Of a DNA stretch of 64,000 nt, positions 7,953 through 25,047 are shown piece by piece. The notes beneath the pieces were generated by a model, which was not told the origin of the DNA, did no database searches, and was given only the letters and a program-made list of their open reading frames with translations. The stretch comes from Candidatus Nitrotoga sp. CP45 (GTDB lineage: Bacteria > Pseudomonadota > Gammaproteobacteria > Burkholderiales > Gallionellaceae). Positions within the stretch are counted from its first letter, which is position 1. Each line of letters opens with the position of its first letter. The stretch is from NCBI GenBank assembly GCA_945874105.1, contig CAMCFJ010000009.1, forward strand, positions 16,592 to 80,591, read 5' to 3'. The position numbers and the translations under genes are program-made.

Positions 7953-9335
7953 CTAACCGCCTTTAGATGCCTTGCGATAAGCTTCAGCAGCAATTTCAGT
8001 TTCTAGTCGCTTTTGTTCTTCGAGTCTTCGTTCTTCGTCAGAGTTATTCGAAAGTGTGTTGAACTCTCTTGCACGCAGACGGACTTTCTCAAGTAAAAAT
8101 TCTTCCGCAGCCAACCCCATAAATTGCCCGCTAGTTTGCAAATACGCATAGAAGTCGTAAAGAAAACGATCAAGACCATTCCCATAATTCGTAATGCCAT
8201 ACTTTGCCATGTACGAAGCAATCGAACTTGCCCCCAAAGAAAATATCCTTTTATCGTCTGGTAATCGTGTTGCCTTGAATGACCTTGTAAGCGCCCCTCC
8301 ATCGGTTTCCCAGTCAATTGAAGATAGATATGCCCATAGAGGATGAACAGGCCATCGGGAACGCGTCTGGTCGTCTGGATTAGGCAGGGTCAGGCGCAAC
8401 CACTCTGTTGAGGCGTAGCTCCAGAGGCCGTTCAGATTCGCCAATACACTGTCGAGACTTACAAGGCCATGCTGTGCCAATACTTCACGCCTGAATTGAA
8501 ATTCCACGCGCCAGATGGATTCGTCACTCTTCCACCCTGCTGCTTGCCATAACGGGATAAGGTCACCACGACCACTGCTAAATGTTTCCAGCAATTTGTT
8601 ATATAAACGGCAAGCCATGATGCCACCCAGACCAACAGTCCAGCCTGTGAACTGTTCCGCTACAGCGTAGGCAGCTATGTTTTTGCCGCGAGTTACCCAT
8701 GCTTTACGATCCCATGACTCCATGTCTTCATTGGAGACAAAATCAGCACATAGATCGAGGCGGCTAACGTGAGCAGAATCGGTGAGCTTGCCCAACTCTT
8801 CCAAAATTGAGCGCAAGTGTATTTCTGCTTCTTTGGGTGTGACGCTAGATAGATACTGCGAAGATAGCTTTACATAGGCCATAGGCGTTCGTTTACTGGC
8901 TCTAGATAGGCTAATGCGGAATGCACCATCTTCTAGGACGTATGGGAACACCGACGAGCCTTTATCCTTGACCTCGAAGATATGACCCGCAATGGAGTAT
9001 TGCGCAAGAGCTTGCTGATCTATTTCGGTATGTTGGGCGAGTTGCTTGAGCTTGGTTAAATGTTCCTGAACCGGCGGGAAAATCTCACCCTGATAGGAAA
9101 GATAAAGACTATCAACCCCAAACCTTAAAAGCTTGAAATACTCATTATTGCTGTTATAGGGTTCTCTGTTAGTAGGCGTCGAACCCTTTGCCACCTCGAC
9201 ACGAGTCCGGTCGGCCGCACCGCGCACGCTGGCGCGTGCACCCGTGCGACCGGCCGGACTCGTGTCTGCGGCGGCTTGAATGGTTGTATCGCTCTCTGAA
9301 CCGAGAGACTGACGATCTGTTGATTTTTTCTGCAT
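7953..9335 (-). CDS. Replication initiation factor-like protein (Rep_trans/RstA type)
   Basis: Probably starts replication of the excised element by nicking an origin (rolling-circle type). The core resembles Rep_trans initiators of small plasmids and filamentous phages: VSRLDLCADF, then GWTVGLGG...RLYNKLLE with a candidate nicking tyrosine, then WRVEFQFRREVL. Family assignment is from motif pattern only. I place the start at the second ATG (MQKKSTD, 460 residues), because AAGGAG lies 6 nt before it; the ORF-track start is six codons further upstream. The N-terminal 60 residues are low-complexity, and a large DNA palindrome lies within their codons. Confidence 0.65.
   Translation of the reverse strand: MQKKSTDRQSLGSESDTTIQAAADTSPAGRTGARASVRGAADRTRVEVAKGSTPTNREPYNSNNEYFKLLRFGVDSLYLSYQGEIFPPVQEHLTKLKQLAQHTEIDQQALAQYSIAGHIFEVKDKGSSVFPYVLEDGAFRISLSRASKRTPMAYVKLSSQYLSSVTPKEAEIHLRSILEELGKLTDSAHVSRLDLCADFVSNEDMESWDRKAWVTRGKNIAAYAVAEQFTGWTVGLGGIMACRLYNKLLETFSSGRGDLIPLWQAAGWKSDESIWRVEFQFRREVLAQHGLVSLDSVLANLNGLWSYASTEWLRLTLPNPDDQTRSRWPVHPLWAYLSSIDWETDGGALTRSFKATRLPDDKRIFSLGASSIASYMAKYGITNYGNGLDRFLYDFYAYLQTSGQFMGLAAEEFLLEKVRLRAREFNTLSNNSDEERRLEEQKRLETEIAAEAYRKASKGG
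9198..9266. repeat. Long GC-rich palindrome inside the rep-like gene (candidate origin)
   Basis: Two 23-bp arms (GACACGAGTCCGGTCGGC... and its inverse) match at 21 of 23 positions. They enclose a second inverted repeat, GCACGC/GCGTGC. The stretch is far richer in G+C than its surroundings. Large hairpins inside or next to rep genes are typical of rolling-circle double-strand origins; that role is inference. Confidence 0.6.
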
Positions 9336-9435
9336 GATAAACTCCTTGACCATTGGCGGACATGCGATTGCTTTCCGCTACTGACAAGGAATTTATGCTT
9401 CAGGAAGGATTGATTCGAGGCACTAAAAAATAATT

Positions 9436-10338
9436 TCAGTGCCTTGACCTTTTGTTGATAGTCTGAAACTCGCGATATTCGCGTAAGCGCTTAGACAAAT
9501 AACCGACATCCTCTATTCTGTTCTCGTAACCACCAACACCTGCATCCTCACAAATATCAAGAATTTCACGGTGCTTGAGCGATCCGTCCAGATAGCCGCC
9601 TTCATCCAAAAAGGCGAAAGTCAGCCACAGAGTTTTGTAGCGTATTTTACTGCGTAGGAGTGGACTTGTGAGACGATAGTGCAACTTGTCCAGGAAGCCT
9701 ACTTCACCGCCTGAAATTGCTTTTTCATAACGTTCCTTGAAGTAGGGTAAGGCCGACAAAATACGCTTGTCAATCTGCACGGCAAGGCAATATGCGTCGT
9801 CATCGCCTCGTTCTGCCGCCGGTACCAAGTCAGTCATTTTGCGCCCATGAACCATAATGGCAATAGTGTTAAAGAAAGCTGCAAAGAATGCAGACATGCT
9901 AATCCGGGTCTGTTTAATAAATTCAGCTTGTTCTTCCGGTTTAAGTTCGCCGAATTCCTTATTTACATCCTGTTCCTTTTGTGGGGTGTCCGGCAGATTC
10001 TCTAAAATGGTATCGGTGGACTCACCCATAAACTGGATTAGTTCTTCTGCGCAGCATACTTGCTCATCCTGGGACATCAGTTTGAATTTTGTGCCCAATT
10101 CATTTATTTGTTCGGCTGGCATATAAGCTAAAAACAACATCTTAATAAATATTTCCTCGCTTCTATAGAGTTCAGGATAATTGTGGATTTTGAGCCTATC
10201 TACCAATTCAGCCATTTTGGGAGGAAGGCTGATCCAGCCACCATGCTGTTCAATGTAAATCAGCATTTCTTCATACTCAGGGATGTTTTCCTTGAGAGAT
10301 GAGGAAATGAATTCGCGAGTGAGTTTCAGTCGTTGCAC
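9436..10338 (-). CDS. Hypothetical protein, 300 aa
   Basis: No family recognised. It appears soluble, acidic and helical, with no signal peptide. A hydrophobic stretch near residue 150 (MSAFFAAFFNTIAIMVHG) could be a single membrane-associated helix. It lies 100 bp upstream of the rep-like gene on the same strand and diverges from the restriction-modification gene, so it may belong either to the replication module or to the cargo. A, T-rich codons and position within the element mark it as accessory. Confidence 0.7.
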   Translation of the reverse strand: MQRLKLTREFISSSLKENIPEYEEMLIYIEQHGGWISLPPKMAELVDRLKIHNYPELYRSEEIFIKMLFLAYMPAEQINELGTKFKLMSQDEQVCCAEELIQFMGESTDTILENLPDTPQKEQDVNKEFGELKPEEQAEFIKQTRISMSAFFAAFFNTIAIMVHGRKMTDLVPAAERGDDDAYCLAVQIDKRILSALPYFKERYEKAISGGEVGFLDKLHYRLTSPLLRSKIRYKTLWLTFAFLDEGGYLDGSLKHREILDICEDAGVGGYENRIEDVGYLSKRLREYREFQTINKRSRH

Positions 10339-18095: not shown

Positions 18096-18722
18096 ATGGC
18101 TCGTTACGGCACAGATCAATTAACCGAAGCTCGATTTGAATTGGGTTCGCGTGGGCGTGTTCTGAAAAATCTCCTTGGCATTTGTAGCAAGCGCGAAATG
18201 GATGAGATGGAGGCAACCAAGCTAGTCGCGGTAACTGACTGGGCAATCCGGCACGTTTCTGCTGACCAGCGTATCACCTCCGCCGATATTTGCCTGCTGC
18301 ACAAGCAATGGCTAGGTGAAGTGTATCCGTGGGCAGGCGAGTATCGGCAGGTGAATATTAGCAAGGGTAGTTTTGTATTTGCGATGGCGGCGCAAGTGCC
18401 GCGCTTGATGTTGGAGTTTGAGCGGAAGGAGCTGGCACGATTTACGCCATGCGCTTTTGACGACCTGGATGATGTGCTGGAAGCATTGGCTATCACACAT
18501 TGCGAGTTGGTGCTGATCCATCCTTTCCGCGAGGGCAATGGGCGCGTGTCACGTTTGCTATCTACGCTTATGGCTTTGCAAGCGGGTTTGCCGTTGCTAA
18601 ATTTTTCCAGCATCAAAGGAAAACAGCGCGAGGCTTACTTTGCCGCAGTGCGGGCAGGGATCGGGCGCGACTATCAGCCGATGATAGAGGTTTTCAGAAA
18701 AGTGGTAGCTGCCAACAGCTAG
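18096..18722 (+). CDS. Fic/DOC family protein (putative AMP transferase toxin)
   Basis: Fic-fold enzyme, expected to transfer AMP or another nucleotide moiety to a target protein. The catalytic motif HPFREGNGR at residues 142-150 matches the active consensus HPFx(D/E)GNGR, and a flap-like WAGEYRQVNISKG precedes it. At 208 residues it has a compact Fic core. I find no (S/T)xxxE(G/N) inhibitory motif in it, so it resembles class I Fic toxins that need a separate antitoxin. A small gene with exactly such a motif lies convergent and overlapping at its 3' end. Confidence 0.88.
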   Translation: MARYGTDQLTEARFELGSRGRVLKNLLGICSKREMDEMEATKLVAVTDWAIRHVSADQRITSADICLLHKQWLGEVYPWAGEYRQVNISKGSFVFAMAAQVPRLMLEFERKELARFTPCAFDDLDDVLEALAITHCELVLIHPFREGNGRVSRLLSTLMALQAGLPLLNFSSIKGKQREAYFAAVRAGIGRDYQPMIEVFRKVVAANS

Positions 18723-21044: not shown

Positions 21045-21248
21045 TTGAGACCCGAAAATTCACCACCTTCTCCAAGATCCATTATTCGCACCATCGTCGA
21101 GAACCAGCCAGAGGATGCCTCTTACGATGAAATCATGCGCGAGTTAGCGTTTGACCGTATGGTCGAACGCGGCTTGCAGGATGTGCGCGCTAACCGCGTA
21201 GTGAGCAACAACGAAGCCGCACAGAAAATCCGGTCATGGCGGAATTAA
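21045..21248 (+). CDS. Type II antitoxin (RelB/ParD-like)
   Basis: 67-residue partner of the RelE/ParE-type toxin. I start at TTG 21045 because AGGAG lies 8 nt upstream; the longer ORF in the track has no such support. The first 15 residues are proline-rich and flexible, followed by an acidic helix-rich part (YDEIMRELAFDRMVERGLQDVRANRVVSNNEAAQKIRSW), typical of addition-type antitoxins that wrap around the toxin. It probably also represses its own promoter. It overlaps the toxin start by 13 bp. Confidence 0.75.
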   Translation: MRPENSPPSPRSIIRTIVENQPEDASYDEIMRELAFDRMVERGLQDVRANRVVSNNEAAQKIRSWRN

Positions 21249-21535
21249 AGTGGACGAACGAAGCGCTAGATTGGCTGGAAGAAATTTATCGCTACATTGC
21301 CCATGATATTCCTGAAGCGGCGGCGCAAGTCGTGGATGGGATATTCGAAAAGGCACAAGTGCTGCTTCAGCATCCAGACATCGGCACCAGATTGCGTCAA
21401 GTCGAAGAGGGGGATGTACGTTTTATCTTGTATGGTCATTACCGCATTGCCTATTTACGGCACACCAACGATGAACTTATACATGTAATTGGCGTGCTTC
21501 ATGGCGCGCTCGACATAGAAAAATACCTGCCATGA
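21236..21535 (+). CDS. RelE/ParE family toxin
   Basis: 99-residue toxin of the ParE/RelE fold, acting either on gyrase or on ribosome-bound mRNA. The order is typical: WTNEALDWLEEIYRYIAHDIPEAA helices, then HPDIGTRLRQ, then strands VRFILYGHYRIAYL and a C-terminal ELIHVIGVLHGALD. The Tyr-Arg pair in HYRIAYLR is common in ParE-like members, and no classic mRNase triad is obvious. The start codon lies within the antitoxin gene, so expression is coupled. Confidence 0.88.
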   Translation: MAELKWTNEALDWLEEIYRYIAHDIPEAAAQVVDGIFEKAQVLLQHPDIGTRLRQVEEGDVRFILYGHYRIAYLRHTNDELIHVIGVLHGALDIEKYLP

Positions 21536-21573: not shown

Positions 21574-21942
21574 ATGTCATCCGCAACTACACGACGCGAA
21601 CAAGTCCAAGCAGCACTCAAGGCGTTTGCGGACACGTCAGTCCAGAAAACAGCTACGAACCTGCTCAATGCGCTCGGCTACGTCAGCGAGAAGACCACCG
21701 ACCTTGGGAACAATGTTGAATCCCTACTCGGCAACATCGAACAGTTCAAACCGGAACTTGGCAACATTATCCGCGACAAGATCAAGGCCGACCGTTGGAA
21801 ATCCTGTGCCTTCTTGTTCCAACTTCCCAACGACGAAATCCCTTTGCTGGCGATGGGGCAGCAAGCATTTTCCAACGATAACAAGCTGGCGCGCAGCCAC
21901 CCGAAGCTGGCAGCCGGTTCTCGTTGCGCACTTGAATCCTGA
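21574..21942 (+). pseudogene. Truncated restriction-modification methylase N-terminus
   Basis: 122 codons that resemble the conserved first ~100 residues of large Eco57I-type restriction-methylases (REQVQAALKAFADTSVQKTATNLLNALGY, then KADRWKSCAFLFQLPNDEIPLL). After NDNKLARS the likeness ends and a stop follows; the methylase domain (NPPY) is missing altogether. The break point is followed directly by an unrelated asparagine-synthase-like gene, so the deletion probably came with that insertion. The remaining ORF may still be translated. Confidence 0.55.
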
Positions 21943-22034: not shown

Positions 22035-23615
22035 ATGAAAATAATTAACGCCAGTCAGTGGCAATGCCTGAAAACTCAGGACATATCTCACTATTATGTT
22101 GGCCAGCACGTAGCTTCACCATCGTTGTGTGCTCAAAGTTTTAGGCCTTTTGCGTGGCTGGAATTTAATCATCAGAGCGGTGAATTGAGTGCGGCTCGTG
22201 ATCATTTTGGCCAAGAGCCGTTCTATTACCATTACCACGAGCATGCCCAGCTCTTTATTTTTGGTTCAAATATTCCCGATATATTGCGGCATTTACTTAC
22301 TCACCCGAATTCGAATGAAAAGTGCGAGCAAGAAATTTTTGATCGGCCTCGGGACAATGATGACCCACCTTACAGCACAGAAACTTATTTTCAGGGGATT
22401 TTTCGCCTTACGCCTGCCCATATTCTGCGCATCAACAAGAAAGGAGTAAGCGAAAGCGCCTATTGGTCATTGGATCCGAAAGTGGAATCACTCAACTACT
22501 CTCGTGACGAGGAGTATCTCGAACATTTTTCAGCACTTATGGATGAAGCACTCAGCTGCCTTCTTCCAAAAGACACTAAATTTGCTGCAGAATTCAGCGG
22601 CGGTCTTGACTCATCAGCTATTTTTGTAGCCTGCCGTAAAGCTCATTTGAGCCCGGCTTTATTTACTCAGCCACCGCCAGCAAGCTACAGAATCAGCGAT
22701 GAAGATCTCAATGTTCAGCACCTTCTTAAATATTTTCAATGGCATGACCATCATTGTTTCGTAGATGCCCGAGATTTTGACCCCATTTCAGTTTTCAAAT
22801 ATTTTTCTCAAGTCTATGCTGGCTGCCCGCCTTATTGGCTATCCATGTTGGCCAGCAATGTATACAAAAAAGCTGTGGAGCAAGGCTACACCACTATCGT
22901 TTCTGGTTATGCCGGCGATGAATGCGTGTCACTGGATTGCCCGCCTTATTTAAGCTATTTTCAGCACCTGCAAGAGCACGGCCTATTCTCACTCCTGAGA
23001 TTATGGAGACAAGACTCCGCCAAAAGTGCGCCCGGCTTACCACGATTAAAATTATTTTTTCGTCTACTTCAATACCTGAACCCCCAAGTTGGCTCCAGAA
23101 TCTTCCAGATATCTAAACTTTTGGGGTTTCGTGAACAGCAAATACAATTTTACCGTTCCCTTCGCGACTATGAATTCGCTGTCCTGCAAGGAGACATATC
23201 CCATGAAGTACGGATGAAGGTTGAGTGTAGCGCCGTACTCGCAAAATCCTTAGGCTTTACTTTTGTCTATCCGTTCTTGTACCCACCCCTGATTGAATTT
23301 TGTTTCCGCTTACCATTGCACAAAAAAAAACAAGGAACGCTAATGCGATGCCTTATCCGAGAGTATCTATCCGCCCATGTTAGCGGCCTAAAATCAAATA
23401 CCAAAGGCGGGGCTTTTGTGCCGAGCACCATGCAGAAGTGTCGAGATTATGCGGCGCAGGGCGCATTTTTAGAACATTTCTCCAATCTACCTTTCCAGTA
23501 TAAAATCAACGCGAACAAACCTTCTGAATTTAGGTTTATGTTAGAAGCACGAGCCTTCATGCTCAAACATTATCGTTTAACCCAAACACATACCCCACAC
23601 AAATGCGAGAAATAA
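22035..23615 (+). CDS. Asparagine synthase-like ATP-dependent amide ligase
   Basis: 526-residue protein with the two-domain AsnB layout. The N-terminal half-domain resembles class II glutamine amidotransferase (ARDHFGQEPFYYHYHE, TYFQGIFRLTPAHILRI) but lacks the catalytic Cys2, since the protein starts MKIINAS. The synthetase domain has the PP-loop FSGGLDSS at about residues 187-194 and SGYAGDECVS later. Without glutaminase activity it likely uses another amine, as lasso-peptide cyclases and beta-lactam synthetases do. It overlaps an LpxL-like acyltransferase by 13 bp. I see no precursor-peptide ORF. Product unknown. Confidence 0.75.
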   Translation: MKIINASQWQCLKTQDISHYYVGQHVASPSLCAQSFRPFAWLEFNHQSGELSAARDHFGQEPFYYHYHEHAQLFIFGSNIPDILRHLLTHPNSNEKCEQEIFDRPRDNDDPPYSTETYFQGIFRLTPAHILRINKKGVSESAYWSLDPKVESLNYSRDEEYLEHFSALMDEALSCLLPKDTKFAAEFSGGLDSSAIFVACRKAHLSPALFTQPPPASYRISDEDLNVQHLLKYFQWHDHHCFVDARDFDPISVFKYFSQVYAGCPPYWLSMLASNVYKKAVEQGYTTIVSGYAGDECVSLDCPPYLSYFQHLQEHGLFSLLRLWRQDSAKSAPGLPRLKLFFRLLQYLNPQVGSRIFQISKLLGFREQQIQFYRSLRDYEFAVLQGDISHEVRMKVECSAVLAKSLGFTFVYPFLYPPLIEFCFRLPLHKKKQGTLMRCLIREYLSAHVSGLKSNTKGGAFVPSTMQKCRDYAAQGAFLEHFSNLPFQYKINANKPSEFRFMLEARAFMLKHYRLTQTHTPHKCEK

Positions 23616-24412
23616 TAAAGAAACTATTCAAGCAATTTCTTGAAATTCTCATCACGGTTTCAGGGTTTATTATTTCCAAAATGCGCACTCCGCAACAGCG
23701 CTATCGGGTTGCACTTCTCTGGGTAAAATGGCTTTTTCCCTTGGCTGCCTTTGTTCATTGCTGGGTTTTTCGGCTACACAAAAAAGCACCCCTCAAAAAA
23801 TCATCGCTCTTGAAATATATTCTTTCTGCCATAACTCGCTACGCTTATATTGAAATTCCTCTCCGTAGTATTAACGAACAGGCGCTCTTGGAATACCACC
23901 GTAGATACGGTGGATTCATACTATGCACCGCTCATTTTGGTTTAACCTTGGCCGTCTTGGGTTTGCAAAGAAAACACGGGCTACCATGTACGATTATCTC
24001 TAGTGGCGGTCCCAGCAAAAAAGCCTATGGTTGGAATTGGGGCTGCACCGAGCCCCTACGTTTAATTAAACCCGATGCAAAATCCTTCATCAAAGTTCGC
24101 AAAGCAATAGCCAATGATGAGATTGTTCTGGTTTGCTGTGACTATGCATCAGTTGAGGATATGCAAAATAACGTACTGTTCCTATCCCCCAATATTTTTG
24201 AATATGCGCACAGAGCAAACGTCCCCCTGCTTTTTTTAGGAGCCGCATTGGCTGATGACACAATTATTGAGATCGAATTTGTCGAAGCGTCGCATCCCAT
24301 CCCTGCATCGGCAGAAGAATTGGCCGTGGTGATGGAGGAATTTCGCTTCTTCGTGGCACAGCGCATGGACAAAAACGTCATCTTCAAAAAAAGCTTACTT
24401 TCGTGGGTGTGA
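23603..24412 (+). CDS. LpxL/HtrB-like lysophospholipid acyltransferase-family protein
   Basis: 269 residues. A basic and hydrophobic N-terminus (one membrane helix near residues 42-60) is followed by the acyltransferase block FILCTAHFGLTLAVLGLQR. Lipid A acyltransferases carry H-x4-(D/E); here the position after HFGLT is Leu, so the general acid is missing or placed elsewhere. Later blocks (LVCCDYASVED, PLLFLGAALADD) keep the family order. Overlap with the asparagine-synthase-like gene implies a shared product, perhaps an acylated amide or peptide; that is inference. True LpxL activity is doubtful. Confidence 0.65.
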   Translation: MREIIKKLFKQFLEILITVSGFIISKMRTPQQRYRVALLWVKWLFPLAAFVHCWVFRLHKKAPLKKSSLLKYILSAITRYAYIEIPLRSINEQALLEYHRRYGGFILCTAHFGLTLAVLGLQRKHGLPCTIISSGGPSKKAYGWNWGCTEPLRLIKPDAKSFIKVRKAIANDEIVLVCCDYASVEDMQNNVLFLSPNIFEYAHRANVPLLFLGAALADDTIIEIEFVEASHPIPASAEELAVVMEEFRFFVAQRMDKNVIFKKSLLSWV

Positions 24413-24816: not shown

Positions 24817-24935
24817 CTCCCAAAAATATTGAGAGCCTGTGAAGAAAACAGCCCTATCGTTCAGTCTTCTTGCTGCATATCATGCTGCATGGCAGCATAG
24901 AAAATGCGTGCCTTTGAATTAAGGCAATGCTGCAC

Positions 24936-25047
24936 GAGTCCCTCCGTTCGGGCTGAGCCTGTCGAAGCCATTGGCAACTTATCGATCTGCAAGAAGTGCG
25001 TTTCGACAAGCTCAACGCGAACGGATTTGTTCAGCGTAGCCTTAACC
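24936..25047. repeat. MITE-like palindromic repeat, copy 2 (inverted)
   Basis: Opposite-orientation copy of 2632-2752: GTCCCTCCGTTCGGGCTGAG then CCTGTCGAAG in one arm, and TTTCGACAAGCTCAACGCGA then ACGGATTTGTTCAGCGTAG in the other. The central spacers differ from copy 1, while the arms are nearly identical. Confidence 0.8.

Follow-up and report, generated by a model that had tools for sequence, protein, structure and literature searches.

Lasso cyclases (C proteins; paeninodin-type, NF033535) combine the asparagine-synthetase fold and an SGGxDS motif with the lack of the glutaminase cysteine; asparagine synthetase B (AsnB) has the same fold and ATP-pyrophosphatase motif, and beta-lactam and carbapenam synthetases are likewise devoid of glutaminase activity. 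YxxPxL leaders, an isoleucine at position -2 and clusters that bring together a kinase, B1 and B2 are known from other lasso peptides (PMC10368454), and B1 and B2 act jointly on the leader (PMC5067487). An albusnodin-type lasso cluster additionally links the cyclase to an acyl-transferring enzyme, described as an acetyltransferase that modifies a peptide lysine, within a full A-B-C cluster (PMC9266682). The locus reported here also joins an acyltransferase-like gene to a ligase of the asparagine-synthetase fold, but it differs from the albusnodin type in having neither a full A-B-C cluster nor an acetyltransferase dedicated to a peptide lysine.

The two genes (Table 1) lie between a ParE-type toxin gene and ppsA in a 64-kb stretch of DNA, referred to here as the window, that belongs to a genome assembled in 50 contigs. 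An AMO model, run without a positive control, gave no hit, and a Nitrosomonas-like ammonia oxidiser was set aside as the host. The initial annotation had placed both open reading frames (ORFs) correctly and had called them 'fused by overlap'; the genes do overlap, the ligase stop codon (23613–23615) falling within the 5′ end of the second gene, which starts with an ATG at 23603, but there is no fusion protein. Both genes have a GC content of 44%, lower than the ~55% of recQ and ppsA and consistent with a joint horizontal gain; for the ligase we infer a horizontal origin.

Table 1 Coordinates of the gene pair and its motifs in the window
Feature	Position	Strand	Basis
Lasso-cyclase-type ligase (assigned by homology), 526 aa, asparagine-synthetase fold, N-terminally truncated glutaminase-like domain	22035..23615	+	PF00733, tree, model
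ATP-pyrophosphatase motif SGGLDSS, ligase residues 188-194	22596..22616	+	kept throughout the clade and shared with AsnB
C-terminal helix region of the ligase, residues 498-526, counterpart of the congener remnant	23526..23612	+	AFMLKxY helix, remnants
13-bp overlap of ligase and acyltransferase-like gene	23603..23615	+	
Acyltransferase-like protein of predicted LpxM/PatA fold, 269 aa	23603..24412	+	Foldseek, orthologues
Altered H-x4-acid motif HFGLTL, residues 111-116 of the second protein	23933..23950	+	L/M replaces D/E in 6/6 orthologues

The ligase matches PF00733 (E 4e-10), whereas its match to GATase_7 is confined to positions 78-122 of 123, the last third of that domain. Alignment with AsnB shows that the nucleophilic Cys2 has not been replaced by another residue but is missing outright, since the start of the domain, ~100 residues, is gone; the missing cysteine noted in the initial annotation is thus explained. 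The predicted model (pLDDT 83) matches AsnB in the PDB and, with a Foldseek probability of 1.00, TsnB9 and the carbapenam and beta-lactam synthetases. Despite the common fold, identity to the beta-lactam and carbapenam synthetases and to the TsnB9 hydroxyamidotransferase is only 11-15%, and no genes of such pathways stand beside the ligase. The best NCBIfam match is the lasso cyclase family NF033535, at 127 bits against a cut-off of 525, and this shortfall counts against reading the protein as an orphaned lasso cyclase; its lasso-linked relatives also remain below the cut-off, with 113-150 bits. In the phylogenetic tree 25 ligases with a short N-terminal domain, hereafter short-N ligases (that of the window and 24 others), form one clade with a support of 100/100, separate from AsnB, from the AsnB-type amidotransferases of the congeners and from the paeninodin cyclase. 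The tree and the missing N-domain together rule out an ordinary AsnB, and the comparison with lasso cyclases made in the initial annotation holds.

Within this clade the window ligase is sister to a ligase from a Legionellaceae metagenome-assembled genome (MAG) (L044; 44% identity, support 100/98), and further relatives are found in two Burkholderiales/Neisseriales MAGs (L045, L046), a Neisseriaceae MAG (L041), many genomes of the family of the Legionellaceae MAG and two more genomes of the class. The 24 other members of the clade derive from Legionellales-type and Neisseriales-type genomes, and the ATP-pyrophosphatase motif is conserved throughout. Their neighbourhoods are those of lasso biosynthesis to varying degrees. 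The L045 cluster comprises the ligase, an HprK-like kinase, a PqqD protein, a B2 protein above the cut-off of NF033537, an NTP_transf_5 protein and ABC genes, without a detected precursor; at L046 ligase, kinase and PqqD are followed by the end of the contig; and L062, L067, L068, L070, L071 and L072 carry differing subsets of lasso-type cluster genes. Judged by its sequence, the window ligase is a lasso-cyclase-type enzyme, an assignment that follows from the grouping in the clade together with the precursors, kinase, PqqD, B2 and ABC genes near other clade ligases. We know of no cyclase of this clade that has been tested, and a search of the open-access literature, into which few subscription papers fell, returned no paper on it; this branch of the lasso enzymes looks little studied.

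Signal-peptide-like proteins adjoin several of the cyclases (L061 2973-4070, L062 7605-8702, L063 8519-9499, L075 11723-12727, L077 3750-4793, L046 298-3318 and L072 4913-6274), with Pfam matches to Lcl_C (L061), RCC1 repeats (L046) and a propeller domain (L072). At L065 a single ORF of 690 aa (8165-10237) appears to start as a truncated short-N ligase and to continue into a C-terminal part that resembles these neighbouring secreted proteins. Three lasso-type clusters also include a secreted subtilase-like protein (L067 5674-7131, L070 13634-15085, L072 7897-9360), for which PF00082 was confirmed in L070.

Beside or near the short-N ligases, and mostly within a few bases of them, are ORFs of 50-65 aa in which a YxxP or WxxP leader precedes a core whose eighth residue is acidic, and which we regard as candidate lasso precursors on the strength of motif and gene order. 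A regular expression ([YW]xxP...E8), composed after inspection of the ORFs themselves, was run on 28 loci and found a single such ORF in each of 15 (L058, L059, L061-L063, L065, L067, L068, L070, L072, L075-L077, L102 and L104) and a dubious one in L103; the same pattern detected no adjacent precursor in L060, L064, L066, L069, L071, L073 and L074. A ring of seven residues, suggested by a Gly-Glu spacing, was set aside in favour of a putative ring of eight, because the latter places Ile, Thr or Pro at position -2 and so agrees better with the known Thr/Ile(-2) rule (PMC10368454). Gene order and motifs suggest that the substrate of these relatives is probably the core of the nearby precursor, which would be closed from residue 1 to the acidic residue 8. 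The clade would represent lasso cyclases in which half of the glutaminase domain is missing; Legionellales-type and other gammaproteobacterial genomes hold at least 15 candidate precursors linked to them. Clade and precursors together are a more notable result than the gene pair itself.

The genome of the window offers its ligase none of these partners in recognisable form. B2 was sought with PF13471, which detects the B2 of L045 and finds nothing in the window genome or in 18 congeners. The genome-wide search for a precursor relied on a profile that matched three Legionellales-type genomes and had no match here, and the precursor pattern is absent from both strands of the window. A stand-alone PqqD protein (B1) was likewise not found in this genome, where PqqD domains occur only in two long ORFs at contig C20. 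The absence of B2, of a stand-alone B1 and of a recognisable precursor makes canonical lasso maturation unlikely, with the reservation that a diverged precursor or B2 could escape such searches of a 50-contig assembly. Alternatively, the ligase could work in trans and cyclise a diverged lasso precursor, while unrecognised proteins encoded in the same genome take over the functions of B1 and B2. Membership of the clade speaks for this idea, as do the several clade members that also lack a detectable adjacent precursor and the PqqD domains at C20; we nevertheless regard it as very improbable in view of the negative searches for B2 and precursor, and the one C20 PqqD protein that was scanned, at 441 aa, is not a B1. 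The latter has as neighbours a 2OG-Fe(II) oxygenase and a protein that weakly matches O-FucT (L105, G000 contig C20, 6012-10931), possibly another peptide-modifying cluster.

Neither Pfam nor NCBIfam yields a match to the second protein, even when E values of 1-10 are admitted. Its predicted structure resembles LpxM (5knk, 5kn7) and PatA with Foldseek probabilities of 0.91-1.00, the value of 1.00 being reached with LpxM from a model of low confidence (pLDDT 55). The H-x4-D/E catalytic motif of LpxL and LpxM is not present: the histidine is kept and the acid is gone, the motif reading H111-F-G-L-T-L116 in the window copy and HFGLTM in the five orthologues. The initial description of an LpxL-like partner with an altered motif is borne out as to the motif, and the low-confidence predicted fold is in keeping with the rest. 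Five of 18 congeners have an orthologue with 71-75% identity (alignment A1), and none turned up elsewhere, whether among 149 relatives or across 399 genomes of the order, so that in these searches the protein, unlike LpxL/LpxM and PatA, is confined to one genus; plasmids hold no homologues of the gene, and comparison of the protein with the viral fold library brought no significant match. In several congeners the gene adjoins what we take, from a reading of its protein, to be mnmC, a genomic place different from that in the window. The gene is under purifying selection in the five congeners that lack the ligase, with dN/dS of 0.15-0.37 among them and 0.35-0.51 against the window copy. That they keep it in this way after losing the ligase suggests that this probable membrane acyltransferase relative of the LpxM/PatA fold has a function of its own, independent of its former neighbour.

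The pair was initially proposed as a possible new small-molecule cluster, and its distribution does not sustain a dedicated two-gene cluster. It is intact in a single genome, none of the five congeners with the second gene has the ligase, and no ligase homologue elsewhere was seen with an acyltransferase-like neighbour; the contig of L044 ends just past the ligase, and the L044 genome has no match to the acyltransferase-like gene. Four congeners (G006, G008, G016 and G007) do carry, directly upstream of the acyltransferase-like gene, a remnant of 65-81 bp that is 84-91% identical at the nucleotide level to the 3′ end of the ligase, far above shuffled controls, and G001 has a shorter match of 41 bp. 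As the AFMLKxY helix encoded there is native to the ligase family (it occurs in L044, L060 and L063), the congener segment derives from the ligase and was not picked up by it, from which it follows that the pair is ancestral and that the ligase was lost later. The pair thus existed in the ancestor of part of the genus, and the association is a loose one, not an obligate two-enzyme pathway. Lack of conservation and a firm grouping with ordinary AsnB had both been named beforehand as outcomes that would speak against a new cluster; the pair is largely not conserved, whereas the tree keeps the ligase apart from AsnB.

In a working two-gene route an amide would be formed by the ligase, and the acyltransferase-like protein would attach or transfer an acyl chain to yield an acylated amide or an amino-acid lipid. 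Co-transcription and joint inheritance are suggested by the 13-bp overlap and by the low GC that both genes share. The pair also goes back to an ancestor within the genus, the reading frame of the ligase is unbroken, and in the window, the one place with the intact ligase, the acyltransferase-like copy has diverged near its conserved CDH region. A two-gene unit in working order would likewise account for the intact overlap and for the constraint on the ORF. We still consider such a route unlikely, given the five congeners that keep the second gene alone, the want of a comparable neighbourhood among ligase homologues and the loss of the catalytic acid in all six acyltransferase-like copies.

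The frame of the ligase is open, with the SGGLDSS P-loop and the catalytic motifs intact. Had the gene drifted neutrally, 0.1-0.2 substitutions per site would be expected to produce 6-11 stops; this estimate borrows its branch length (~0.2 for the window branch) from synonymous distances between copies of the partner gene, and it does not hold if the pair arrived recently. The open frame argues for constraint, whether here or in a donor. That the ligase is instead a non-functional passenger, too recently arrived to have decayed, would be in keeping with its low GC, its loss in congeners and a truncated-looking ORF just upstream (21574-21942); we judge this to be distinctly unlikely, as ORF and motifs are intact and the remnants place the ligase in the genus before the acyltransferase-like genes diverged (dS ~0.3-0.4), unless the pair was re-imported. 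Neither protein has relatives on viral contigs, and plasmid matches to the ligase all stay below 60% identity and are mostly partial.

Taken together, we find it fairly probable that the ligase, which belongs to the short-N lasso-cyclase clade, was acquired horizontally and orphaned, and that it is loosely linked to an independent LpxM/PatA-like gene; the pair is probably not a new pathway. The orphaned ligase is apparently still constrained and would act on a carboxylate, which by homology it would activate with ATP as an AMP ester and then join to an amine to form an amide bond. If it is active, lasso-type ligases would be reusable outside RiPP biosynthesis. An extension of this thought, that a lasso-type ligase no longer tied to a leader peptidase, an RRE or a precursor was recruited together with an acid-less protein of the LpxM/PatA fold into a new two-enzyme amide or lipid pathway, strikes us as unlikely.

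Further genes were noted around the pair. The ParE-type toxin gene (PF05016) occupies positions 21236-21535 of the window, and a short ORF upstream of it is a possible antitoxin; the truncated-looking ORF directly upstream of the ligase encodes 122 aa, has no family match and resembles the truncated start of a larger gene; and a Fic/DOC family protein (PF02661) is encoded at 18096-18722. Between the pair and ppsA, at 24930-25030, lies an imperfect inverted repeat that by eye is REP-type-like.
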